Under the pieces are notes generated by a model. The model saw only the letters and a program-made list of their open reading frames with translations. It was not told the origin of the DNA and searched no databases. Of a stretch of DNA of 64,000 nucleotides, positions 27,103 to 39,952 are shown in pieces (the first letter of the stretch is position 1; each line of letters begins with the position of its first letter). A program made the position numbers and the translations under genes. Location: contig JAGBIC010000006.1 of NCBI GenBank assembly GCA_017935185.1, positions 62,001 through 126,000 on the forward strand, given 5' to 3'. Origin of the DNA: Alistipes sp. (GTDB lineage: Bacteria > Bacteroidota > Bacteroidia > Bacteroidales > Rikenellaceae).

Positions 27103-28368
27103 TTAACCAATTAAAAATTCGAACAGGTTGGGGTTGTCGTTAAGATATTCATAGTCAATGCAGTTCTCGGCCATTCGTTCGGTAAGACCTTTGAAGTCGG
27201 CGGGATTCTGCAACTCAATACCAATCAAAACGGGACCTTTCTCGCGATTTGTCTTCTTTTTATACTCAAAATATGTGATATCATCGTGGGGGCCCAGAAC
27301 ATTTGTTACAAAATTTTGCAGGGCTCCGGCGCGTTGCGGGAAGCGTACTACAAAATAGTGCTTCAAACCCTCGTATAGCAGAGAACGCTCCTTGATATCC
27401 TCCATGCGCACGATGTCATTGTTGCTTCCACTCACCACGCATACCACATTTTTACCTTTGATCTGCTCTCGGTAATAATCCAATGCGCTGATGGCCAATG
27501 CACCGGCGGGCTCAACTACAATCGCATCAAAATTATATAGATTCAGAATCGTTGTACATACCTTTCCTTCGGGAACGACTACGATATCGTCCAACACTTG
27601 ACGGCATACATCATAAGTGATATCGCCCACGCGTTGTACTGCAGCGCCATCGACAAACTTCTCGATGTGGTCTAATGCTGTAACCTTGCCACGCTCGAAT
27701 GATAGTTTCATTCCGGCTGCTCCGGCGGGTTCAACACCAATGATTTTGCTGCTGGGTGACATTTGCTTATATACAGCTCCTATGCCCGAGGCCAGGCCAC
27801 CTCCGCCGATAGGCACAAACACATAGTCGATTGCTGTGCGGCTTTGTTGCAGAATCTCAAGGCCTACCGTACCTTGCCCCTCGATTACCTTTGGGTCGTT
27901 GAATGGCGGAATAAATGTCTTGCCCTCCTCAACGCAAGCTCTCTCGGCAGCGGCATTGGCATGGTCGAATGTGTCCCCTGCAAGCACCACCTCAATGGCA
28001 TCACCGCCAAACATCTTCACTTGGTTGATTTTCTGCTTGGGTGTGGTAACAGGCATAAAAATCTTACCTTTTATACCCAACTTATTACACGACAGGGCAA
28101 CGCCTTGTGCATGATTTCCTGCACTCGCACAGACAATACCGCTCTCAATCTGCTCAGGAGATAGAGAACGTATCTTGTTGTAAGCACCTCGAATCTTGTA
28201 TGAACGTACCATCTGCAAATCCTCGCGCTTGAGCATAACCTCGGCTCCGAATTTCTCCGACAGATTGCGGTTGTGCATCAGAGGGGTGGGTGATAAAATT
28301 TCACCCAACGTATGTTCTGCCGACATAATGTCGTTCAACGCAGGAAAATATCTCTCTTGACTATTCAT
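27103..28368 (-). CDS. ilvA: Threonine ammonia-lyase (threonine deaminase)
   Basis: A PLP enzyme that converts threonine to 2-oxobutanoate, the entry to isoleucine synthesis. The PLP lysine motif SYKIRGAYNKI is near residue 56, GGGGLASG binds the cofactor phosphate, and SGSNNDI is near the end of the catalytic domain. The C-terminal region (about residues 335-420) holds one ACT-like domain (FVVRFPQRAGALQNFV) that would carry feedback control. At 421 residues it is the shorter single-ACT form. It sits 11 bp after leuB, so all enzymes for Ile, Leu and Val are in one operon. Confidence 0.94.
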   Translation of the reverse strand: MNSQERYFPALNDIMSAEHTLGEILSPTPLMHNRNLSEKFGAEVMLKREDLQMVRSYKIRGAYNKIRSLSPEQIESGIVCASAGNHAQGVALSCNKLGIKGKIFMPVTTPKQKINQVKMFGGDAIEVVLAGDTFDHANAAAERACVEEGKTFIPPFNDPKVIEGQGTVGLEILQQSRTAIDYVFVPIGGGGLASGIGAVYKQMSPSSKIIGVEPAGAAGMKLSFERGKVTALDHIEKFVDGAAVQRVGDITYDVCRQVLDDIVVVPEGKVCTTILNLYNFDAIVVEPAGALAISALDYYREQIKGKNVVCVVSGSNNDIVRMEDIKERSLLYEGLKHYFVVRFPQRAGALQNFVTNVLGPHDDITYFEYKKKTNREKGPVLIGIELQNPADFKGLTERMAENCIDYEYLNDNPNLFEFLIG

Positions 28369-28379
28369 TTTTCGCTAAA

Positions 28380-29447
28380 TTAAATGTTGGCAGCAATAAA
28401 ATCACCCACCTCTGTGGTCGAACTGGGCTTGATGCCTTCGGGAGCAATATCTTCGGTGACAATATTCTGCTCAATTGACAGGTCTACTGCTCGACGTATC
28501 GCTGCACCTGCCTCCATGTCGTTGAAGGCATATTCAAACATCATGGCAGCCGAAAGTATGGTTGCAATGGGATTGGCGATGTTTTTGCCTGCGGCCTGGG
28601 GGTACGAGCCGTGTATAGGTTCAAAAAGCGATGTGCCTGTACCGATTGAAGCTGAGGGGAGAAGTCCGAGTGAACCTGTGATTACGCTGGCTTCATCTGT
28701 TAGAATGTCGCCAAACATATTCTCGGTTACAATCACGTCGAAGTGTTTGGGCTGCTGGATAATCTTCATGGCAGCATTGTCTACAAACATATACTCAACC
28801 TCCACCGAAGGATACTCTTTTTCCATAGCTTTGGCCGTTTCACGCCATAATCTTGATGTGGCCAATACATTCGCCTTATCTACCACGGTAAGCTTGCCAC
28901 GGCGTGCGGCTGCATACTCAAAGCCGAGCTTACATATACGCTCAATCTCACCGCGAGTATATACACATGTGTCGTAAGCAGTGTTCCCATCCTCTGAACG
29001 GCCCTGCGGACGGCCGAAATATAGTCCTCCTGTAAGTTCTCTTACGCAGAGGAAATCTGCACCATCAATTAGCTCGTGGCGCAGCGGAGAACGATGTAAA
29101 AGACTTTCGAATGTGTTTACGGGGCGCAGGTTTGCATACAAACCCAACTTCTTGCGCATGGCCAGCAGACCTTGCTCGGGGCGAACTTTCGCCTCGGGAT
29201 TATTATCATAACGGGGGTCGCCAATTGCTCCAAAAAGAACAGCATCGGCAGCCATACAGGCCTGATGTGTCTGCTCGGGATATGGGTCACCCACTTCGTC
29301 AATAGCCGCAGCACCCACTTTTGCATGAGTGTATTCCACTTTATAGCTGAACTTCTCTGCAACCTTATCGACAGCCTTTATTGCTTGTGCGATAATCTCG
29401 GGGCCAATGCCGTCGCCCGGGAGAACGGCAATCTTTATCTCTTTCAT
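28380..29447 (-). CDS. leuB: 3-isopropylmalate dehydrogenase
   Basis: It oxidises and decarboxylates 3-isopropylmalate to 2-oxoisocaproate with NAD. The start [13 protein letters not shown] and [12 protein letters not shown] are family signatures. VDKANVL and [12 protein letters not shown] carry the metal and cofactor residues, and the glycine-rich [19 protein letters not shown] binds NAD. The length of 355 is normal. It lies 12 bp after leuD on the minus strand. Confidence 0.97.
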
Positions 29448-29459
29448 TTTGGTGATTAT

Positions 29460-30059
29460 TTATCGTTGTTCAAAATGTTCAATCTCGTTGCGTATGCTAA
29501 CCAAAAAATCCACATCGTCATAGCCATTCATCAGACATTGTTTCTTGTAGGGTGCAATGTCGAACGACTCCTTGCTTGAGGTGCCGACAATCTCTATGGT
29601 TTGCGCCTCGAGGTCGATTTTAAGCTCTGTGGCGGGGTCTGCCTCTGCCGCTTTGAATATCTCGGCCAGCATGGTTTCGCTTACCGTTACGGGTAGCAAG
29701 CCATTGTTCAAGGCATTGTTGCGGAAGATGTCGGCGAAGAAACTCGATACCACGGCGCGAAAACCCGCACCATCTATAGCCCATGCCGCATGTTCTCGGC
29801 TTGAACCACATCCGAAATTCTTTCCTGCAACAAGAATCTGACCTTTGTATATAGGTGAGTTCATGACAAAATCAGCCTTAGGCTCGCCCTGCTTGTCATA
29901 GCGCCAATCACGAAAAAGATTCTCGCCAAAGCCTTCGCGGGTTGTGGCCTTAAGAAAGCGGGCGGGTATAATCTGATCAGTATCTATGTTTTCGATGGGT
30001 AGCGGTACTACTGTCGAAGATAATGTTGTGAACTTGTTTCTCATAACTTTTGCTATCAA
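29460..30059 (-). CDS. leuD: 3-isopropylmalate dehydratase small subunit
   Basis: The swivelling small subunit of isopropylmalate isomerase, acting with Leu[21 protein letters not shown] and the active-site loop [15 protein letters not shown] are diagnostic. The length of 199 is normal. It starts 5 bp after the leuC stop, consistent with coupled production of the two subunits. Confidence 0.97.
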
Positions 30060-30064
30060 ACAAT

Positions 30065-31459
30065 TTATAAAAGCTCTCTCGGGTCGGTAACCACTCCGGT
30101 TACGGCAGCGGCAGCAGCCACGAGTGGTCCGGCCAGCATAGTGCGTGAGTCGGGGCCCTGACGACCTTCGAAATTACGATTTGATGTCGCTACGCAATAT
30201 TTACCTGCAGGAATCTTATCTTCGTTCATAGCCAGACATGCCGAGCAGCCCGGCTGGCGAAGTTCAAAGCCTGCCTCGTGTAGTATCTCTTGCAAACCCT
30301 CTTCGATAGCCATTTTCTCGACCTCCTTGCTGCCGGGTACAATCCATGCTGTAACAGAATCGGCCTTTTTCTTTCCCTTTACAAAGTGGGCAAAAGCACG
30401 CAAGTCCTCGATGCGGCCGTTTGTGCAGCTACCGACAAAAACATAATCCACCTTTTTGCCAAGCATCGGCTCGCCCTCCTTGAATCCCATGTACGACAAA
30501 GCTTTGTCGAATGTAACCTTCTCGGCTTCGTCCATCTTCTCGGTAGTAGGGATAGTGTTGCTTATGGCTGTGCCCATGCCGGGGTTGGTACCATATGTAA
30601 TCATTGGCTCGATGTCGGCAGCGTCGAATGTAACCTCCTTGTCAAATACAGCATCGTCATCAGAACGTAGCTTGCTCCAACGCTCTACCGCTGCATCCCA
30701 ATCTTTGCCTTTGGGCGCGAACTCTCGGCCTTTAAGGTAATCGAATGTTGTTTGGTCGGGGGCAATCATTCCTCCGCGGGCACCCATCTCGATACTCATG
30801 TTGCAGATTGTCATACGAGCCTCCATCGATAATGAGCGAATTGCCGAGCCGGCAAACTCCACAAAGTGGCCTGTGCCGCCACCTGTGCCCAACTTTGAGA
30901 TTATGTAGAGGATGATATCCTTTGAGCAAACACCTTTGCCAAGCTCGCCTTCGATGTTTATACGCATGCTTTTGGGCTTGCTTTGCAGAATGCATTGTGA
31001 TGCCAAAGCCATCTCTACCTCGCTTGTGCCAATGCCGAAGGCTACACAACCGAGCGCTCCATGTGTTGAGGTATGGCTGTCGCCACAAACGATGGTCATG
31101 CCTGGTTGTGTAAGTCCTGTTTGAGGGCCTATGACATGGATAATGCCGTTGCGCTCAGAGCCGATAGGAAAAATTGTGATTCCATGCTCGGTACAATTGC
31201 GCTCGAGTGTGGCAACCTGCTCGGCCGATTGTGGCTCACTAATGGGCAAGTGCTGATTCTGCGTGGGAATATTATGGTCGGGGCTGGCCGTCACCTGAGA
31301 GGGACGAAAAACCTCGATGCCACGCTGTCGCAGGCCTGCAAAAGCCTGTGGACTTGTTACCTCGTGTATATATTGTCGGTCGATATATAGAACACATGAA
31401 CCACCGTCCAGTGTGCGAACGGTGTGAGAGTCCCATATCTTGTCGAATAGCGTATTCAT
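30065..31459 (-). CDS. leuC: 3-isopropylmalate dehydratase large subunit
   Basis: The Fe-S subunit of isopropylmalate isomerase. The cluster cysteines are visible in [14 protein letters not shown] and GCSACLAMN. Other family stretches are KIWDSHTV at the start, [13 protein letters not shown] and the [10 protein letters not shown] segment. The length of 464 matches the family. It lies four bases after leuA. As an aconitase-like enzyme it needs a 4Fe-4S cluster. Confidence 0.97.
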
Positions 31460-31463
31460 TGTG

Positions 31464-32960
31464 TTAAGCTATTTTTGAAATTGCATCGATGAACGACTCT
31501 ACCGATGCTGTTACAATGTCGGTATTTGCTCCAAAGCCGTGGTACATCTTTCCCTTGTGCGATATTTGAATGTGTACCTTACCCAGGTCGTCGCTGCCGC
31601 GTGTGATGGCCTGAACCAAGTACTCCTCAATGTGAACACGACGTTTGGTGATATTCTTAACGGCTGTTATGGCCGCATCAACAGGGCCGTTTCCGCATGC
31701 TGTCTCGGTGAAAGTGTCGCCATCGAAACTGATTTGCACGGTTGCGGTAGGTATGCTCGACTTGCCACAGACTACCTGAAGACCTGTCAGCTGAATACTC
31801 ATGCGGCGGCGAGATGCGGCTGTACCGATAAGCACCTCCAAATCGCGCGTGGTGACCATCTTTTTCTTGTCGGCCAACTCCAGAAAACGCTGATATATTT
31901 CATCGAGTTCCTCATTTTCAGGATTAAACCCAATCTCCGAAAGGTGGTGCTTAAGTGCTGCACGACCACTGCGGGCTGTGAGAACTATGCTCGACTGATC
32001 TACTCCAACATCTTCGGGGTCAATAATCTCATAAGTCTCGCGACTCTTCAGTACGCCATCTTGATGAATTCCCGATGAGTGTGCAAACGCGTTGCGGCCC
32101 ACGATAGCTTTATTGGCTTGTACGGGCATACGCATCAGATTCGATACAAGTTTGCTGGTGTTGATAATCTGCTTTGAGTCGATGCCGACTTCAAAATCAA
32201 GATTGTTATGGCACTTGATGGCCATCACCACCTCCTCCAAAGCAGTGTTGCCTGCGCGCTCTCCCAAACCGTTGATGGTAACCTCCACCTGACGAGCGCC
32301 GTTCTGTACGCCTGCCAATGTGTTGGCAGTGGCCATTCCGAGGTCGTTGTGGCAGTGTGTAGAGATGATGGCCTTGTCGATATTGGGGACGTTGTTTTTG
32401 AGATATGCGATTTTCTCACCGTACTCGCTTGGCAGACAGTAGCCTGTTGTATCAGGAATATTTACCACGGTGGCTCCTGCGGCAATGACGGCCTCTACTA
32501 CGCGAGCCAGAAACTCGTTGTCGGTGCGGCCTGCATCCTCGGCATAGAACTCTACATCATCTACGAATCGGCGGGCATATTTCACCGCTTCGACAGCCTG
32601 CTCCATAACGGTCTCGGGTGTCATGCGCAACTTCTCGTAGATGTGATATGTCGATGTGCCTATTCCGGTGTGTATGCGGCCATGCTTTGCAAACTCCAGC
32701 GATTGTGCTGCCACATCGATATCTTTCTTTACGGCACGTGTCAGGGCGCAAATCGTGGGGTTGGTTACAGCCTTCGAAATCTCTACCACCGAATTGAAGT
32801 CGCCCGGGCTTGAGATGGGGAATCCCGCCTCAATGATATCTACACCGAGTTTCTCGAGCTGGCGCGCAACCTCAATTTTCTCGATAGTGTTAAGCTGACA
32901 ACCCGGCACCTGCTCGGCATCACGGAGAGTGGTGTCAAAAATATATACTTTTTCGCTCAT
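31464..32960 (-). CDS. leuA: 2-isopropylmalate synthase
   Basis: The committed step of leucine synthesis, joining acetyl-CoA and 2-oxoisovalerate. The TIM-barrel part (about residues 1-270) shows [24 protein letters not shown] and [14 protein letters not shown]. The linker and C-terminal LeuA regulatory domain (about 385-498) are present ([18 protein letters not shown] and [11 protein letters not shown]), so leucine feedback inhibition is expected. The usual DGEQ motif reads DAEQ here. A perfect 12-bp inverted repeat lies between it and ilvC. It opens the leu half of the operon. Confidence 0.96.
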
Positions 32961-33032: not shown

Positions 33033-34079
33033 TTAGTTGTTCTCGGGACGGAGTTTGCGTACGACGGCACCAGCCTGCCACATCTCGGTCTCGCGCATCT
33101 CGCGGAGTTCCTCCTCCAACTTTGAACGGTAGTCGGGTTGTGAGTTGGTGTCGATACTGCGCTGTGCCTCGTTGCCGCATGCAACCTCGCTGTAAAGCTC
33201 CTCAAATACGGGACGGGTAGCGTCACGGAACTTCTTCCACCAATCCACTGCACCACGCTGTGCTGTGGTAGAGCAGTTGGCGTACATCCAGTCCATTCCG
33301 TTCTCGGCAATCAGCGGCATAAGGCTCTGTGAAAGCTCCTCAACGGTCTCGTTGAAGGCCTCTGAGGGTGTGTGGCCATTTGCACGCAATACATCGTATT
33401 GTGCTGCAAAAATACCCTGAATAGCACCCATCAATGTTCCGCGCTCGCCGGTAAGGTCAGAGTAAACCTCACGCTTGAAGGTTGTCTCGAACAGGTAGCC
33501 TGAACCTACGCCGATACCGAGAGCTATTACGCGATCCCATGCCTTGCCTGTGGCATCCTGGAAGATAGCGTAGCTTGAGTTAAGGCCACGGCCCTGCAAG
33601 AACATGCGGCGGAGTGATGTGCCTGAACCCTTGGGCGCTACCAAGATAACATCAACATCAGCGGGAGGAACGATGCCTGTGCGCTCCTTATATGTGATAC
33701 CAAAGCCGTGTGAGAAATAGAGGGCCTTGCCTGCTGTGAGGTGCTTCTTAACGGTCGGCCAAACAGAAATCTGACCAGCATCAGAGAGTAGATACTCGAT
33801 GATTGTAGCCTTCTGGCAAGCCTCTTCAATGTCGAAGAGGTTCTCTCCGGGAACCCAGCCGTCAGCAATGGCCTTATCCCAGCTCTTTGAATCTTTACGC
33901 TGACCAACAATTACGTTAAAGCCATTGTCACGCAAGTTGAGTGACTGGCCGGGGCCCTGAACACCATAACCGATTACTGCAATTGTCTCATCCTTCAAGG
34001 TCTCTAATGCTTTTGCCAAAGGATACTCCTCACGTGTTACGACGTTCTCTTCAACGCCACCAAAATTCATCTTTGCCAT
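33033..34079 (-). CDS. ilvC: Ketol-acid reductoisomerase
   Basis: It converts acetolactate and acetohydroxybutyrate to dihydroxy acids with NAD(P)H and Mg. The Rossmann motif VIGYGVQGPGQSLNLRDNG lies near residue 35. The metal-site helices contain DLTGERGTLMGAIQG and EAFNETVEEL. The length of 348 indicates a class I enzyme with a short C-terminal extension. The stretch just after the Rossmann loop (VIVGQRKDSKSW) bears the cofactor-choice residues. It sits 34 bp after ilvN. Confidence 0.96.
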   Translation of the reverse strand: MAKMNFGGVEENVVTREEYPLAKALETLKDETIAVIGYGVQGPGQSLNLRDNGFNVIVGQRKDSKSWDKAIADGWVPGENLFDIEEACQKATIIEYLLSDAGQISVWPTVKKHLTAGKALYFSHGFGITYKERTGIVPPADVDVILVAPKGSGTSLRRMFLQGRGLNSSYAIFQDATGKAWDRVIALGIGVGSGYLFETTFKREVYSDLTGERGTLMGAIQGIFAAQYDVLRANGHTPSEAFNETVEELSQSLMPLIAENGMDWMYANCSTTAQRGAVDWWKKFRDATRPVFEELYSEVACGNEAQRSIDTNSQPDYRSKLEEELREMRETEMWQAGAVVRKLRPENN

Positions 34080-34113: not shown

Positions 34114-34647
34114 TTATTCGTTTAATATTTTTTTCTTTAATTCATTCACTTGTGAAAGATACTCGTCGAGTAACTCGCGGCGAGATTTGATGATTGCCAC
34201 CTGTCCCGAACAAACCAGCTGATAAACGCCATAAGGCTCGAGCATGTGATACAATTCGCGGATCTCCTCTTTATGCCCTGTCTTTTCAAGAACGATGTAG
34301 TCGTCGTGAATATCCAATATTCTCACATTATGTTTGCGAACCAAATCCTCGACATTGCGGCTGCGCTGCACCTTGTAGAGTGCCAGCTCCTGCAAAACCA
34401 CCTCATTTGGAGTGTAGCAGAACACCTTTAATACATCGATTTTCTTTTCGATCTGTTTTACCAAATTGGCAACTTTCTCGGGGTCGTTCTTTACGATGAT
34501 GGTATGCTTGAATATGCCGTCTATGGCAGACTCCGATGCGGTTAGTGATTCGATATTAACATTACGATGAGTAAATACGGTGGTGATTTGACTCAACAAA
34601 CCAACTCTGTTCTCTGAAAATATGGTAATAATAAACTCCTTATCCAT
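34114..34647 (-). CDS. ilvN: Acetolactate synthase regulatory subunit
   Basis: The small subunit that activates the large subunit and confers valine feedback. An N-terminal ACT domain (about residues 4-75, TIFSENRVGLLSQITTVF and NIESLTAS) is followed by a C-terminal domain of the ilvN/ilvH type. The length of 177 is normal for this phylum. It begins 15 bp after ilvB. The family name could equally be ilvH. Confidence 0.94.
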   Translation of the reverse strand: MDKEFIITIFSENRVGLLSQITTVFTHRNVNIESLTASESAIDGIFKHTIIVKNDPEKVANLVKQIEKKIDVLKVFCYTPNEVVLQELALYKVQRSRNVEDLVRKHNVRILDIHDDYIVLEKTGHKEEIRELYHMLEPYGVYQLVCSGQVAIIKSRRELLDEYLSQVNELKKKILNE

Positions 34648-34662
34648 CTTTACGTAGTTTTT

Positions 34663-36402
34663 CTATTCCAAACGAATATCATGTACCGGTTGTCCTGCGG
34701 GGACCATGGGGAAAACATTCTCCTCACGCTCAAGACGTACTTCAAGCAGGAATGCCCCTTCAGTGGCGTGCATCTGCGCAATAGCCTCGTCAAGTTCGTC
34801 ATGACGCTCTATGCAACGGTAGCTGATCTGATTGGCTTTTGCGATAAGTTCGAAATTGGGGTTAGTCAGTTCGGTGAACGAGTAACGGCGGTCGTAAAAA
34901 AGTTCCTGCCATTGGCGCACCATGCCCAAATACCCATTGTTCATCAATATTATCTTTACGCCTACCTGCGATTGGAAAATTGTACCCAACTCCTGCAGAG
35001 TCATTTGAAGACCTCCGTCACCCACAAAGAGGCAAACCTCTCGATGTGGAGCGCCAATCTTTGCGCCGATAGCCGCAGGCAATCCAAATCCCATTGTGCC
35101 AAGGCCTCCCGATGTGATAATGCTTCGGGTCTGCTTAAAGCGGAAATAGCGTGATGCAAACATCTGCTGTTGTCCAACGTCGGTCACCAAAATAGCATCA
35201 TCAAATTGACTTGCCACAGCATCTACCACCTCGCCCATGCGCAGATGTGCGCCACGTCGCTCGATGGCCGGCTCGATGATATCCTCTCGTTCGATATTGT
35301 AGCAGGCGTGGAACTCCTCGAGCCATGCAGTATGATCGCTCTTCGAGATTTTTTCGGTGATGAGCGGCAAACTCTTTTTAACATCGCCCAATACCGCCAC
35401 ATCGGCATATACTACCTTATTTACTTCGGCAGGATCTATCTCAAAATGTATAATCTTGGCGTTTATTCCAAAATTTGACGGGTCGCCCGTAACTCGGTCG
35501 TCAAAACGCATGCCTATTGCCACAATCAGGTCGCAATCTCTGTTCTTGATGTTGGGCGCATAATTTCCGTGCATGCCCAGCATGCCGACATATTGCGGGT
35601 GGTCTGAAGGCAGGGCCGATAATCCGAGTAGGGTAGAGGCGGCAGGTATTCCGCTCTTTTCCAAAAACTCCTTTAACTCCTGCTCTGCTCCACCGAGAAT
35701 CACACCTTGACCTATGAGAGCCATAGGCTTGCGAGAGAGATTTATCAGGCGTGCAGCCTCGTTAATCTGGTCAATGTCAATCTCCTTGTATGGAAGATAA
35801 CTGCGGATAAAGCGCGTGGGTTTATATTCAAAATCGAGCATTCCTCCCTGCGCATCTTTTGTAATATCCACCACAACGGGACCCGGTCGGCCGGTTGATG
35901 CGATGTAGAATGCTTTGGCTATTGCTTCGGGAATATCTTCTGCTCGTTTAACCTGACAATTCCACTTTGTTACAGAGTGGGTGATTTCCAGAAAGTTTAT
36001 CTCTTGAAAAGCATCTGTGCCAAGCAGTTTTGAGCCAACCTGTCCGCTAATAAGTACAACGGGCGTAGAGTCAAGCAATGCATCGGCCAACCCCGTAACG
36101 GTGTTGGTTGCTCCTGGCCCTGAGGTTACAATACACACACCTGTCTTTCCCGTGGCGCGGGCATAACCTTGTGCAGCATGTAGAGCGCACTGCTCGTGAC
36201 GAACAAGTATGTGGTTGAGCTTGTCACGATAGTCATACAACGCATCATATACAGGGATGATAGCTCCTCCCGGGTAACCAAATATTGTGTCTACCCCTTC
36301 GGCTATGAACGAGCGTATTACAGCCTCGGAACCTGATATGCGTGGAAGCTCTTTTTTAAGTGTCGCTTGTGTCTCTATATCTGAAAAACCTGATATTGCC
36401 AT
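34663..36402 (-). CDS. ilvB: Acetolactate synthase catalytic subunit
   Basis: A ThDP- and FAD-dependent enzyme that condenses two pyruvates, or pyruvate with 2-oxobutanoate. FGYPGGAIIPVYDAL and the catalytic glutamate in VRHEQCALHAAQGYARATG are near residues 40-75. The ThDP pyrophosphate motif starts GDGGLQMTLQELGT and ends IILMNNGYLGM. ATG 36402 is chosen because the usual N-terminus (MAISGFSD, then ISGSEAVIRSFIAEGVD) starts there. A longer frame open to 36546 overlaps the end of ilvD and would add 48 unrelated residues. The length of 579 is normal. Confidence 0.96.
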   Translation of the reverse strand: MAISGFSDIETQATLKKELPRISGSEAVIRSFIAEGVDTIFGYPGGAIIPVYDALYDYRDKLNHILVRHEQCALHAAQGYARATGKTGVCIVTSGPGATNTVTGLADALLDSTPVVLISGQVGSKLLGTDAFQEINFLEITHSVTKWNCQVKRAEDIPEAIAKAFYIASTGRPGPVVVDITKDAQGGMLDFEYKPTRFIRSYLPYKEIDIDQINEAARLINLSRKPMALIGQGVILGGAEQELKEFLEKSGIPAASTLLGLSALPSDHPQYVGMLGMHGNYAPNIKNRDCDLIVAIGMRFDDRVTGDPSNFGINAKIIHFEIDPAEVNKVVYADVAVLGDVKKSLPLITEKISKSDHTAWLEEFHACYNIEREDIIEPAIERRGAHLRMGEVVDAVASQFDDAILVTDVGQQQMFASRYFRFKQTRSIITSGGLGTMGFGLPAAIGAKIGAPHREVCLFVGDGGLQMTLQELGTIFQSQVGVKIILMNNGYLGMVRQWQELFYDRRYSFTELTNPNFELIAKANQISYRCIERHDELDEAIAQMHATEGAFLLEVRLEREENVFPMVPAGQPVHDIRLE

Positions 36403-36428
36403 ATAAAGTTTGGTTGTAGTTGTTAAAA

Positions 36429-38249
36429 TTACTCTTCGGGCAAAATTCTTACAGCTCCTTGATCGGCTGATGATACCAACAAAGAATAAGCCTTGAGTGA
36501 TTGAGGAATCTGACGATCGCGGTTGGCCGGTTTGTGCTCTTTCCATGCAGCCATGCGCTCGGCAAGCTCTTGCTCGGAAATTCTTAAGTTGATACTACGC
36601 TCGGTGATGTTGATGTCAATTATGTCACCATTGCGAATGATACCGATCTCGCCACCTGATGCGGCCTCCGGCGATACATGGCCAATTGACAATCCCGATG
36701 TTCCTCCCGAGAATCGTCCATCTGTAATCAGGGCGCATGCCTTGTCGAGGTGTTTTGATTTGAGATATGAGGTGGGGTAGAGCATCTCCTGCATGCCCGG
36801 ACCACCCTTTGGCCCCTCATAGCGGATGACTACCACATCACCGGCCTCAACTTCGTTGCCTAGAATACCATTCATGGCCTGCTCTTGAGATTCAAAAACT
36901 TTAGCCTTGCCGCTAAATTGCATAAGATTCTGGTCTACACCTGCGGTCTTTACAATACATCCTTTGCGAGCAATGTTACCTACAAGAACAGCCAATCCGC
37001 CATCACGGAAGTATGCATGCTCCATGTCACGAATACAACCTTCGGCATGGTCTTCATCCATCTGCTTATAGTATGTGGCTTGAGAGGCCATCTCGCGGCT
37101 GTAACGATTTGCGGGTGCGCTCAAATATATTTTGCGTGCCTCGTCGCTGAAATTGTCCGAACCGAAATAGTATTTGTCAAGAACATCTTTTAGTGATTTT
37201 GCATCAACACGCCCTGCCGAGGTGTCGATAAGGCCATGTTTTGCCAATTCACCCAAGATGCCCATAATACCACCAGCTCGGTTCACATCCTGAATGTGGT
37301 AGTGGCAGGTGGGTGCAACTTTGCAAAGTACGGGAATGTTGCGTGACAAACGGTCGATGTCGGCCATGGTAAACTCTACCCCCGCCTCATGTACTACGGC
37401 CAAAAGGTGGAGCACGGTGTTGGTCGAGCCTCCCATAGCAATGTCGAGCGACATGGCATTCTCGAATGCCGTTTTGGTTGCTATTGAGCGTGGAAGAACC
37501 GATTCGTCTCCCTCAAAGTAGTAACGTTTAGCATTCTCTACAATCAGTTTCGCAGCTTTTGCAAATAGCGCTTTACGATTTTCGTGTGTAGCTACGATAG
37601 TGCCGTTTCCTGGGAGCGCAAGACCTATGGCCTCGTTGAGGCAGTTCATAGAGTTTGCGGTAAACATTCCCGAACATGAACCACATCCCGGGCAGGCGCA
37701 GGCTTCGATTTCATCGGCCTCCTCGTCGGTGCATTTGTCATCTGCGCTGAGTACCATTGCATCAATAAGGTCAGCACCTCTGCCACGGAAATTTCCTGCC
37801 TCCATCGGGCCTCCCGAAACGAAGACGGTCGGGATGTTGAGACGCATTGATGCCATCAACATTCCCGGGGTGATTTTATCGCAGTTGCTTATGCAGACCA
37901 GCGCATCCACTTTGTGGGCATTTGCCATGTATTCCACGCTGTCGGCAATAATATCTCGTGAGGGGAGCGAGTAGAGCATGCCATCATGTCCCATTGCAAT
38001 ACCATCGTCTATGGCGATTGTGTTGAACTCGGCGGCAAAACAACCCTGCTCTTCGATGAGCTGTTTTACATATTGTCCAATCTCATGCAGATGAACATGA
38101 CCCGGAACCATCTGGGTAAATGAATTTGCAATACCAATCACCGGCATTCCCATCTGCTCGGGTTTCATTCCGTTGGCTCGCCACAAACTTCTGGCTCCGG
38201 CCATACGGCGACCTTCGGTCGTTACGGAACTTCTCAATTTATGTTTCAT
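36429..38249 (-). CDS. ilvD: Dihydroxy-acid dehydratase
   Basis: An Fe-S enzyme that dehydrates dihydroxy acids to the 2-oxo acids of Val and Ile. Cysteine motifs [15 protein letters not shown] (about residue 119) and [19 protein letters not shown] (about 188-206), together with the late [20 protein letters not shown], are diagnostic. The length of 606 is normal. It is the first structural gene of the operon, 45 bases downstream of the attenuator terminator, so it and every gene after it would be subject to the attenuator. Confidence 0.97.
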
Positions 38250-38293
38250 AAAAAACGATAATTGTCGTTAGACAAACATTTTATAACCTAACA

Positions 38294-38366
38294 AAAAAGC
38301 CTCTCTCCTATTAGGGAGAAAGGCTTTATATTATTATAGCAGTAATATATATACAACCTTTCTCCC
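38294..38366 (-). promoter_or_regulatory. Transcription attenuator of the ilv-leu operon (antiterminator / terminator)
   Basis: On the minus strand the RNA contains GGGAGAAAGG (38366-38357), beginning two bases after the leader-peptide stop. It is an exact 10-base complement of CCTTTCTCCC (38323-38314). That second segment is also the 5' arm of a terminator: AAAGCCTTTCTCC pairs with GGAGAGAGGCTTT around CTAATA, with one G-U pair, followed by a T-run (38327-38294). The two structures cannot form together. A ribosome stalled in the Ile/Leu/Val run would leave the first segment free, favouring read-through. A ribosome reaching the stop would cover it, favouring termination. The arms are seen directly; the mechanism is inferred from the known logic of his/ilv/leu attenuators. 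Confidence 0.9.
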
Positions 38367-38367
38367 G

Positions 38368-38424
38368 TTATCTGCGCAAGACCACGAGGATTAGGTTAAT
38401 AATGATGAACAAACCGCTATACAT
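38368..38424 (-). CDS. Leader peptide of the branched-chain amino acid operon (18 residues)
   Basis: The frame reads MYSGLFIIINLILVVLRR and stops with TAA. Ten of its 18 residues are Ile, Leu or Val, in an almost unbroken run from residue 7 to 16, the exact amino acids made by the operon. It begins about 25 bases after the predicted transcript start and ends two bases before the antiterminator arm. The peptide should act only by ribosome stalling when charged tRNA-Ile, -Leu or -Val is scarce. It is too short for routine gene callers. Confidence 0.9.
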   Translation of the reverse strand: MYSGLFIIINLILVVLRR

Positions 38425-38455
38425 AAAATTCGCAATTAGCTTTATTAGTTAGGTG

Positions 38456-38486
38456 CAAATGTAATAGTAAAAATTATTAAAAACAA
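38456..38486 (-). promoter_or_regulatory. Promoter of the ilv-leu operon
   Basis: On the minus strand TTG (38486-38484), a 20-bp A/T-rich spacer and TACATTTG (38463-38456) match the Bacteroidota -33/-7 pattern exactly. The transcript should start near 38449, ahead of the leader peptide. Confidence 0.85.
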
Positions 38487-38545
38487 GAAAAATCTTTAAA
38501 TTATTGCATATGTATTCTGACTAATATTCGTTAACTTACGTTAAG

Positions 38546-38644: not shown

Positions 38645-38690
38645 AGCCTCGCTACGTCATCGTTTTGGCTCTTCGACGTGTAGCGAGGCT
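38645..38690 (-). terminator. Terminator-like hairpin after the GH76 gene
   Basis: AGCCTCGCTAC and GTAGCGAGGCT are perfect 11-bp arms, with GTC and GAC able to add inner pairs. The U-run after it on the minus strand is weak (TTGCTTTATATAAAA), so it may work with the second hairpin downstream. Confidence 0.65.
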
Positions 38691-38707: not shown

Positions 38708-39952
38708 TTATTTTTTCAGAGGCTTCAATACGCACATAGCCTCCATAAGCATGCAGCCTGAAAGGTGAGGTGTCAGCTGCACATTCTCATCATCGGCAGG
38801 GGCTTTCCACCAATTTCCACCATACAGCATTGTGTTGTGATTTATGCCGTTGTCTGCCATGATTGTGGCGAGGTTGGTCAAATAGTCATGGTACTTCTTG
38901 CGGGTGTCGAAATCGAGGGTGGGTTCGTTGATGAGTTTTACAAAGTAGCGGAAGAATATACCGTGGAACAGGCCTCCGTCACCATCTGTGGCATTATCAA
39001 GCGCACCCCTATTTTTCGACATCTGCTCAATTACATAATTGGCGGCCTTTTTTGCATCCTCAAGATATTGCTTGTCGCCTGTAATATTATAAAGCTCATG
39101 TGCTGCGCCAAGGAATGTTCCCTGATTGTATGTGAATATCCAATTCTTCTGGATTTTACCACTCTTCGACATGTTGTCATAAACTGCACCTGTCTCGGCG
39201 TTGAACAGATTTGCTTTTAGCCATGCGAAAATTTTCTTTGCTTCAGTAAGGTACTCCTCTTTGGCCTTGCCTCCGCTAACGCCAGACTTGTCAAAGAATC
39301 TGTATAGGCGGGCTGCTATAAGCGCCGCAGGGCCATTAGAACAGGCATTTTTTGACTTTTCAACATCGGTTTTCCATGTGATACCACCATACCATGGCGC
39401 TTCATCTTCAGGGCCCCATGTCGGCCATATCCATTGGTCATACATTTGGCGGGCCTTCTTGAAATATTCGATATTGCCGGTGCTGTCAAACATGCGGATC
39501 TGTGCCAATACCATCCACTCCATATCGTCTACAAATACATTCCACCATGGATCTTCGTCACGCCCCGAGAAGTTGTAACGGGGTGCGCCATCCCACCATA
39601 ATGAATACATATCGAGATATTGTTTTTTGTTGCTGCGCAGGTACGCATCCACCATAACATCCATGGCATGGGCTTGTGGCCAATAGTGGTTGGTCGTCAT
39701 GTTTGAGAGGTTGCTGCCATAGTTGAAATAATAGCGGTCGGCGTAACCTTCAAAGTTGGCTCCCCAGAACTTATCAATAAGGGCTTGTGACATCCCTTCC
39801 GCCATCAGATTCCAGTATTTTTTATTCTTTTTGGCCGGTAATTTTACCTTTTTCACGCTTTGTGCGTTTGAGATACTCGGTGTGGCGGCCATAAGCTGAC
39901 AAGAATTGATTGCCAAACCGATGGTTAATAGAGTGATGAGGATTTTTTTCAT
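38708..39952 (-). CDS. Glycoside hydrolase family 76 enzyme (alpha-1,6-mannanase type)
   Basis: A secreted hydrolase whose family attacks alpha-1,6-mannan backbones, such as those of yeast cell walls. It has an N-terminal signal peptide (core LITLLTIGLAINSC; the Cys could be a lipobox but fits poorly) and an (alpha/alpha)6 catalytic domain (about residues 40-412). The paired catalytic aspartates are in FVDDMEWM (about residue 140), and SKNACSNGPAALIAARLY is typical of the family. The metallophosphoesterase gene is two bases upstream. No SusC/SusD pair is adjacent, so this is not a standard polysaccharide-utilisation locus. Confidence 0.85.
   Translation of the reverse strand: MKKILITLLTIGLAINSCQLMAATPSISNAQSVKKVKLPAKKNKKYWNLMAEGMSQALIDKFWGANFEGYADRYYFNYGSNLSNMTTNHYWPQAHAMDVMVDAYLRSNKKQYLDMYSLWWDGAPRYNFSGRDEDPWWNVFVDDMEWMVLAQIRMFDSTGNIEYFKKARQMYDQWIWPTWGPEDEAPWYGGITWKTDVEKSKNACSNGPAALIAARLYRFFDKSGVSGGKAKEEYLTEAKKIFAWLKANLFNAETGAVYDNMSKSGKIQKNWIFTYNQGTFLGAAHELYNITGDKQYLEDAKKAANYVIEQMSKNRGALDNATDGDGGLFHGIFFRYFVKLINEPTLDFDTRKKYHDYLTNLATIMADNGINHNTMLYGGNWWKAPADDENVQLTPHLSGCMLMEAMCVLKPLKK

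Follow-up and report, generated by a model that had tools for sequence, protein, structure and literature searches.

Attenuation by leader peptides has long been known in E. coli, where ilvL acts through alternative hairpins. Work by Lopatovskaya and coworkers from 2010 reportedly may cover Bacteroidetes.

Other systems are described in several reports. Naville and Gautheret (2010) noted that, before their own case in Firmicutes, none was known outside Proteobacteria and Actinobacteria. In Corynebacterium (ilvB-II), a uORF rich in branched-chain amino acids (BCAA) precedes ilvB together with a terminator, and a title cited in the same report refers to a C. glutamicum leader that lacks a ribosome binding site (PMC10272879). 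Clues of leader-peptide attenuation have been reported upstream of amino-acid operons in Flavobacterium psychrophilum, whose 5′ elements at pheA and hisG are conserved across Flavobacteriaceae (PMC9723704; no word beginning with ‘ilv’ occurs in its main text). The B. thetaiotaomicron transcriptome contains short ORFs in long 5′ UTRs that are reminiscent of leader peptides, and Weinberg et al. (2010; PMC2864571) list Bacteroid-trp (RF01692) among the probable cis-regulatory RNAs of Bacteroidetes.

The preliminary description of the locus studied here had named no well-described case from Bacteroidota. This stands for ilv, for which no description of an attenuator in the phylum was found in the literature searched, but it is too broad in view of the F. 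psychrophilum clues and of Bacteroid-trp, whose loci carry Trp leaders (see below). The ilv-leu leader, from a gut bacterium (Alistipes), appears to be a known type of attenuator, predicted in a major bacterial group where it has hardly been described. Its features are best explained by ribosome-mediated transcription attenuation of the ilv-leu operon, at a probability of about 0.88.

The ilv-leu leader and its alternative stems

The window (the whole 64 kb stretch of DNA that was analysed) derives from a 1.8 Mb assembly of 75% completeness, whose nearest named relatives, among the best 80 of 237 named loci, are Alistipes, Tidjanibacter and Rikenellaceae assemblies. Its minus strand carries an operon in the order ilvD-ilvB-ilvN-ilvC-leuA-leuC-leuD-leuB-ilvA; the ilv and leu genes and ilvA were identified, in agreement with the nine genes first described. 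The parts of the leader and the genes that follow it are:

38484..38486, minus strand: TTG, the -33 element of a Bacteroidota-type promoter
38456..38463, minus strand: TACATTTG, the -7 element (TAnnTTTG), 20 bases after the TTG
38368..38424, minus strand: leader peptide ORF MYSGLFIIINLILVVLRR, 18 codons, ATG at 38424, stop codon TAA
38379..38390, minus strand: region 1, UCCUCGUGGUCU, on leader codons 12-16; pairs in the fold with 38373-38363 (protector stem 1:2)
38357..38366, minus strand: arm 2, GGGAGAAAGG, 5′ arm of the antiterminator
38314..38323, minus strand: arm 3, CCTTTCTCCC, 3′ arm of the antiterminator and 5′ arm of the terminator, exact complement of arm 2
38296..38308, minus strand: arm 4, GGAGAGAGGCUUU / GGAGAGAGGCTTT, 3′ arm of the terminator, running into six T
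38293..38298, minus strand: U run of the intrinsic terminator, six T, the last at 38293
36429..38249, minus strand: ilvD, dihydroxy-acid dehydratase
34663..36546, minus strand: ilvB, acetolactate synthase large subunit (mechanical ORF; the real start may be further in)
34114..34647, minus strand: ilvN, acetolactate synthase small subunit
33033..34079, minus strand: ilvC, ketol-acid reductoisomerase
31464..32960, minus strand: leuA, 2-isopropylmalate synthase
30065..31459, minus strand: leuC
29460..30059, minus strand: leuD
28380..29447, minus strand: leuB
27103..28368, minus strand: ilvA, threonine ammonia-lyase

The preliminary description had placed a promoter, an 18-codon frame, an antiterminator arm and a terminator in this order ahead of ilvD, and all are present, with its coordinates and counts correct. 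On recounting, ten of the 18 residues of MYSGLFIIINLILVVLRR are Ile, Leu or Val (I/L/V), and the 5′ arm of the terminator (CCTTTCTCCC) is, as claimed, an exact 10-base complement of the antiterminator arm (GGGAGAAAGG). Neither arm sequence has a second copy on either strand of the window. Region 1, which lies inside the ORF, was absent from the earlier account and emerged when the whole leader was folded to minimum energy.

The 5′ neighbour of the leader on the minus strand is a GH76-like gene that ends at 38708, and ilvD starts at 38249. Just 3′ of the GH76-like gene lies a strong hairpin (38645-38690, minus strand) followed by a moderately T-rich stretch, which is perhaps the terminator of that gene. 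The leader hairpin sits between two genes on one strand and might simply terminate the GH76-like gene or some unrelated transcript. We regard this as extremely improbable, given that the GH76-like gene has its own hairpin at about 38690-38645, that a promoter lies between this hairpin and the leader, and that arm 2 and the I/L/V leader recur in relatives.

The stems of the proposed attenuator were examined by folding the whole leader of 161 bases and an 83-base segment that runs from the final sense codon to 38290, the latter also with its arms masked in turn. Unconstrained, the 83-base segment forms 2:3 (-28.5 kcal/mol, including a second small hairpin). Masking arm 2 yields the 3:4 terminator plus an AU hairpin (-21.2 kcal/mol), and masking the 3′ arm yields 2:3 (-24.5 kcal/mol); the exchange that the preliminary description had proposed to check in this way is thus borne out. 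The whole leader (-45.9 kcal/mol) folds into 3:4 and a stem of codons 12-16 (UCCUCGUGGUCU, 38390-38379) with AGAUAACGGGA (38373-38363). This stem 1:2 is lengthened by pairing of AACCU with AGGUU, and in the same fold the first leader codons pair over a long range with the spacer that separates arms 2 and 3. Since the whole RNA folds as 1:2 plus 3:4 and the RNA without the leader codons folds as 2:3, arm 2 can be taken either by region 1 or by arm 3. The leader is thus predicted to have the classical four-region layout 1:2 / 2:3 / 3:4.

Conservation of the leader and covariation of its stems

Searches for ilvD were positive for 72 of the 150 family genomes, 51 of the 119 order genomes and 147 of the 198 genomes sampled from the phylum. 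We took the DNA upstream of the gene from 52 family, 48 order and 49 phylum loci, along with the best 80 of 237 named loci. For each upstream region, the best ATG-started ORF of 10-40 codons was scored as -log10 of the binomial chance of its I/L/V count, with a background of 0.28. A score of at least 1.5 defined an I/L/V-rich leader, and counts were made over distinct sequences. On this scale the window leader scores 2.1 and E. coli ilvL 1.9; the threshold is strict, because evident homologues such as MIASNHSNNVVINVLLVVLEKITGER score 1.2.

Such leaders precede ilvD in 29 of 39 upstreams from the window and its near relatives and in 27 of 35 from other named Bacteroidales (the named loci being the best 80 of 237), as well as in 29 of 47 from the order-wide sample. 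Together these three Bacteroidales sets give 85 of 121. Relatives that had lost the I/L/V codons and the mutually exclusive pairing would have spoken against the preliminary description, and in these sets the comparison favours its reading. A clear exception is formed by the other genera of the window’s own family, which reach the threshold in only two of 34 upstreams, with 32 lacking such a leader. Three loci of one sister genus (L018-L020) do have leader-like frames, and two of these are counted in the named set as duplicates. The phylum sample gave 4/20, and a second phylum sample, in which I/L/V-rich short ORFs precede ilvD at 9 of 29 loci, is only suggestive because it was taken without a matched control. 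These nine loci of distant genomes are L113, L115, L116, L117, L122, L124, L131, L132 and L134, with MLDTLGIRIGISVSVLPVQVIISVL as an example.

None of 11 betaproteobacterial ilvD upstreams scored 1.5 or more. The same was true of all 156 control genes from the named loci L022-L089, among which six reach 1.0 and the maximum is 1.40. These controls have at least 150 nt upstream free of long ORFs, and remained after 16 of 172 were removed as ilvD with another start. Where named Bacteroidales loci offer enough sequence, the leader stands before ilvD-B-N-C alone or before ilvD-B-N-C plus leu genes, and ilvA is the last gene in many of these operons. No separate Leu leader was seen before unlinked leuA (L041) or leuC (L057) at the two loci inspected.

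Twelve loci from the family’s other genera share a short string like GGACATCATA / GAGCGTCATA, located 84-157 nt before ilvD (L205, L211, L214, L215, L218, L219, L220, L222, L223, L225, L226 and L232). Several of them also have a GTTAGTCRTAG-like string upstream. No consensus RNA fold was obtained from the 12 sequences, and an Rfam search of 20 loci of these genera returned nothing over cut-off and three matches far below. The string is different from the I/L/V leader, and is perhaps a DNA operator or a novel cis element.

Signals for transcription and translation were examined in 61 aligned leaders. The promoter pattern TTG-N17-22-TAnnTTTG occurs within 120 nt upstream in 53 of the 61, against 1.0 expected in shuffles. 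Bacteroidota are said to start translation mostly without Shine-Dalgarno sites. In the leader frame the I/L/V fraction is 0.572, compared with 0.239 and 0.083 in the other frames; this contrast supports translation indirectly and is biased, because the ORF was chosen for its I/L/V content. In 18 close leaders, variable columns number 11, 11 and 12 of 17 at codon positions 1, 2 and 3. Because these leaders show no third-position bias, and region 1 lies on the same codons and confounds the comparison, these counts are not used as support.

From 188 distinct upstream regions, 109 score at least 1.0; a strict scan finds a terminator in 93 of these and none in 16. An ungapped duplex between arms 2 and 3 reaches p ≤ 0.05 in 61 of the 93 leaders, where about five are expected (200 dinucleotide shuffles), and lies above p 0.05 in the other 32. 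The sets of arms 2/3/4 differ by lineage and change together, as in GGAGAAAGG/CCTTTCTCC/GGAGAAAGG, GAGAATGG/CCATTCTC/GAGAATGG, CCGGAAA/TTTCCGG/CCGGAAA and ATCGGTAT/ATGCCGAT/ATCGGTAT.

Stems 2:3 and 3:4 covary strongly, and 1:2 more weakly. In the alignment of 61 leaders, 93.4% of 2:3 cells are paired, a percentage flattered because the rows were chosen by their 2:3 duplex p-value. Double changes occur in 8 of 11 pairs of this stem, and its 61 double-change cells compare with 19.1 in shuffles (matched in 0/500) and stand far above slid partners. Stem 3:4, which RNAalifold recovered unprompted, is 94.9% paired with double changes in 9 of 10 pairs, and its 66 double-change cells (18.1 in shuffles; 0/500) are likewise far above slid partners. 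Stem 1:2 is 73.0% paired, a percentage reached in 0/500 shuffles. It has 61 double-change cells against 26.6 in shuffles, but 59 when slid by one column, and the number of its pairs with double changes is no higher than in shuffles (311/500). For each of the three stems, the paired percentage exceeds that of every slid version.

These data bear on the view that leader and terminator are real and that control is translational or by reinitiation, with a hairpin that is incidental or serves stability. For Bacteroidetes, short leader genes have been proposed as sites of reinitiation, with a peak where the gene starts 11-14 bp after the leader stop (PMC4833913). However, the leader stop in the window is 118 nt from ilvD, outside this range, and reinitiation leaves the U-run terminator and the mutually exclusive covarying arms unexplained. 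We consider this view very unlikely.

Predicted mechanism of attenuation

The ribosome-mediated attenuator, built on the parts, conservation and covariation described above, would operate as follows. RNA polymerase is predicted to start near 38450, with a ribosome behind it translating the leader ORF. A shortage of charged Leu, Val or Ile tRNA would probably make this ribosome stall on codons 11-16 (LILVVL). A ribosome stalled on region 1 would leave arm 2 free to capture arm 3, and the operon would be transcribed. When these amino acids are plentiful, the ribosome would reach the stop codon and lie over arm 2, so that the 3:4 terminator could form and transcription would end near 38293. A leader that goes untranslated would form 1:2 first and should also yield the terminator. 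From the sequence, we infer that the leader would regulate the operon in response to amino acids.

The edge of a ribosome footprint lies at +15, counted from the base that opens the P-site codon. While codons 12-16 occupy the A site, the leading edge would fall at 38379-38367, on region 1 and at least one base short of arm 2. A ribosome at the stop codon would have its leading edge at 38358 and cover arm 2 except for the last base. On this geometry, with edges on region 1 and off arm 2, codons 11-16 (Leu, Ile, Leu, Val, Val, Leu) should be the sensors, and Leu and Val are predicted to count for more than Ile. Close relatives provide 18 distinct leaders of 18 codons. All 18 have Leu at codons 11, 13 and 16 and Val at codon 14, whereas codon 15 is Val in 16 and codon 12 is Ile in 14. 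The run Ile-Ile-Ile at codons 7-9 is striking, yet its early position is predicted to leave it little influence: a ribosome with these codons in its A site would have its leading edge at 38394-38388 and hardly touch region 1.

Sister leaders and comparison with known systems

When 61 genomes of the genus were searched with a covariance model built from the 61 leaders, 17 gave matches (E ≤ 0.01). Of the 19 matches, 17 lie before ilvD, several of them by construction as rows of the model. The two weaker matches (E = 6.5e-4 and 0.0021), which gave no rows to the model, precede another gene, in the window’s own genome one for a TrpB-like PLP enzyme. This Trp leader is MTQNIHNLWWWRSLDR (L368; G000:C24:5178-5292, minus strand), with arms GAACAATGG / CCATTGTTC / GAACGATGG (p = 0.0025). 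No match to the TrpE family was found in this genome (75% complete), and together with the Trp leader this may point to Trp made from indole.

In all, the same genome holds three more leaders: His before hisG, Trp before the trpB-like gene and Phe/Tyr before pheA, each with a TAnnTTTG box ahead of it. The His-run leader MIIAINIHHHHHILRKIR (L250; G000:C13) has a terminator-like hairpin and an arm 2 that is not significant (p = 0.08), and the Phe/Tyr-run leader MNTNFFFYKRFYYYRLSGQDVVC (L325; G000:C38) has a terminator-like hairpin with p = 0.0015. Across the order, with 45 genomes per family, cognate-residue scores of at least 2 were found for 20 of 28 hisG, 14 of 29 trpE-family and 12 of 25 pheA upstreams, counts made without a matched gene control. 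Some of the trpE-family loci are weak domain matches that may be genes other than trpE, and in a few cases (for example L246 and L308) the frame that scores is not a residue run. None of 25 homoserine dehydrogenase or thrA upstreams reached the score, many flanks being too short for fused genes. The leader residues track the pathway encoded downstream (ILV, HHHHH, WWW, FFFF/YFYF). We lean slightly towards the view that a common attenuator toolkit, with at least two antiterminator geometries and four members in the window’s genome, controls a large part of amino-acid synthesis in Bacteroidales (BCAA, His, Trp and Phe/Tyr).

Since region 1 pairs within the ORF and the RNA is itself structured, a metabolite-binding riboswitch or a protein-binding attenuator might be considered, with the ILV frame as a by-product of T-rich sequence. 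However, the riboswitch, T-box and leader families of Rfam 15 gave nothing at gathering score on the leader, and a lax scan of 361 bases around it returned nothing credible (His_leader and Phe_leader fell far below their cut-offs). Leader residues that follow the downstream pathway also argue against such a sensor, as does ILV content that is specific to one frame, in an ORF chosen for this content. We judge this alternative to be highly improbable.

Bacteroid-trp is a described RNA that invites comparison. Its model matches in 7 of 61 family genomes, in four of them over cut-off, and has no match to the window, to the 361 bases around the leader at E up to 10, or to the trpE or trpB-like leaders scanned. 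At each of the six loci L102-L107, of which four score above the gathering cut-off and two below it, a Trp-rich leader ORF and a terminator-like hairpin precede trpB. In all six, the best pairing of the leader end (GTCGTRAG-like) is with the loop and 3′ side of the terminator. Like the window leader, Bacteroid-trp belongs to Bacteroidota and combines a leader ORF of cognate residues with a terminator-like hairpin. Unlike it, Bacteroid-trp would sense Trp rather than I/L/V; furthermore, in the window and in the trpB-like leader of the same genome, the leader end pairs with the 5′ arm of the terminator. Because the Trp-rich leader ORF is present at all six loci, Bacteroid-trp is very likely a leader-peptide attenuator too, with a different antiterminator, and a cousin of the window element. 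The Trp leaders would thereby suggest what this Rfam motif does.

Our findings offer an order-wide and concrete set of predicted attenuators for a phylum in which amino-acid regulation has received little attention. Each attenuator is a built-in test of whether the ribosome closely trails RNA polymerase in Bacteroidota, and the toolkit reading, if true, would imply close coupling of transcription and translation there. The strong comparative case, with no ilv case found for Bacteroidota in the literature searched, makes the window element a new addition to a known type of attenuator. The F. psychrophilum candidates come from the same phylum and a different order, and Corynebacterium ilvB-II is an actinobacterial element of an ilvBNC operon with another RNA motif. 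E. coli ilvL, the leader of ilvXGMEDA, differs from the window leader in gene order, in length (32 residues versus 18) and in lacking a Bacteroidota-type promoter; the two are compared by function. Both place a BCAA-rich leader before a BCAA operon with hairpins downstream, and the window leader is predicted to work as ilvL does.
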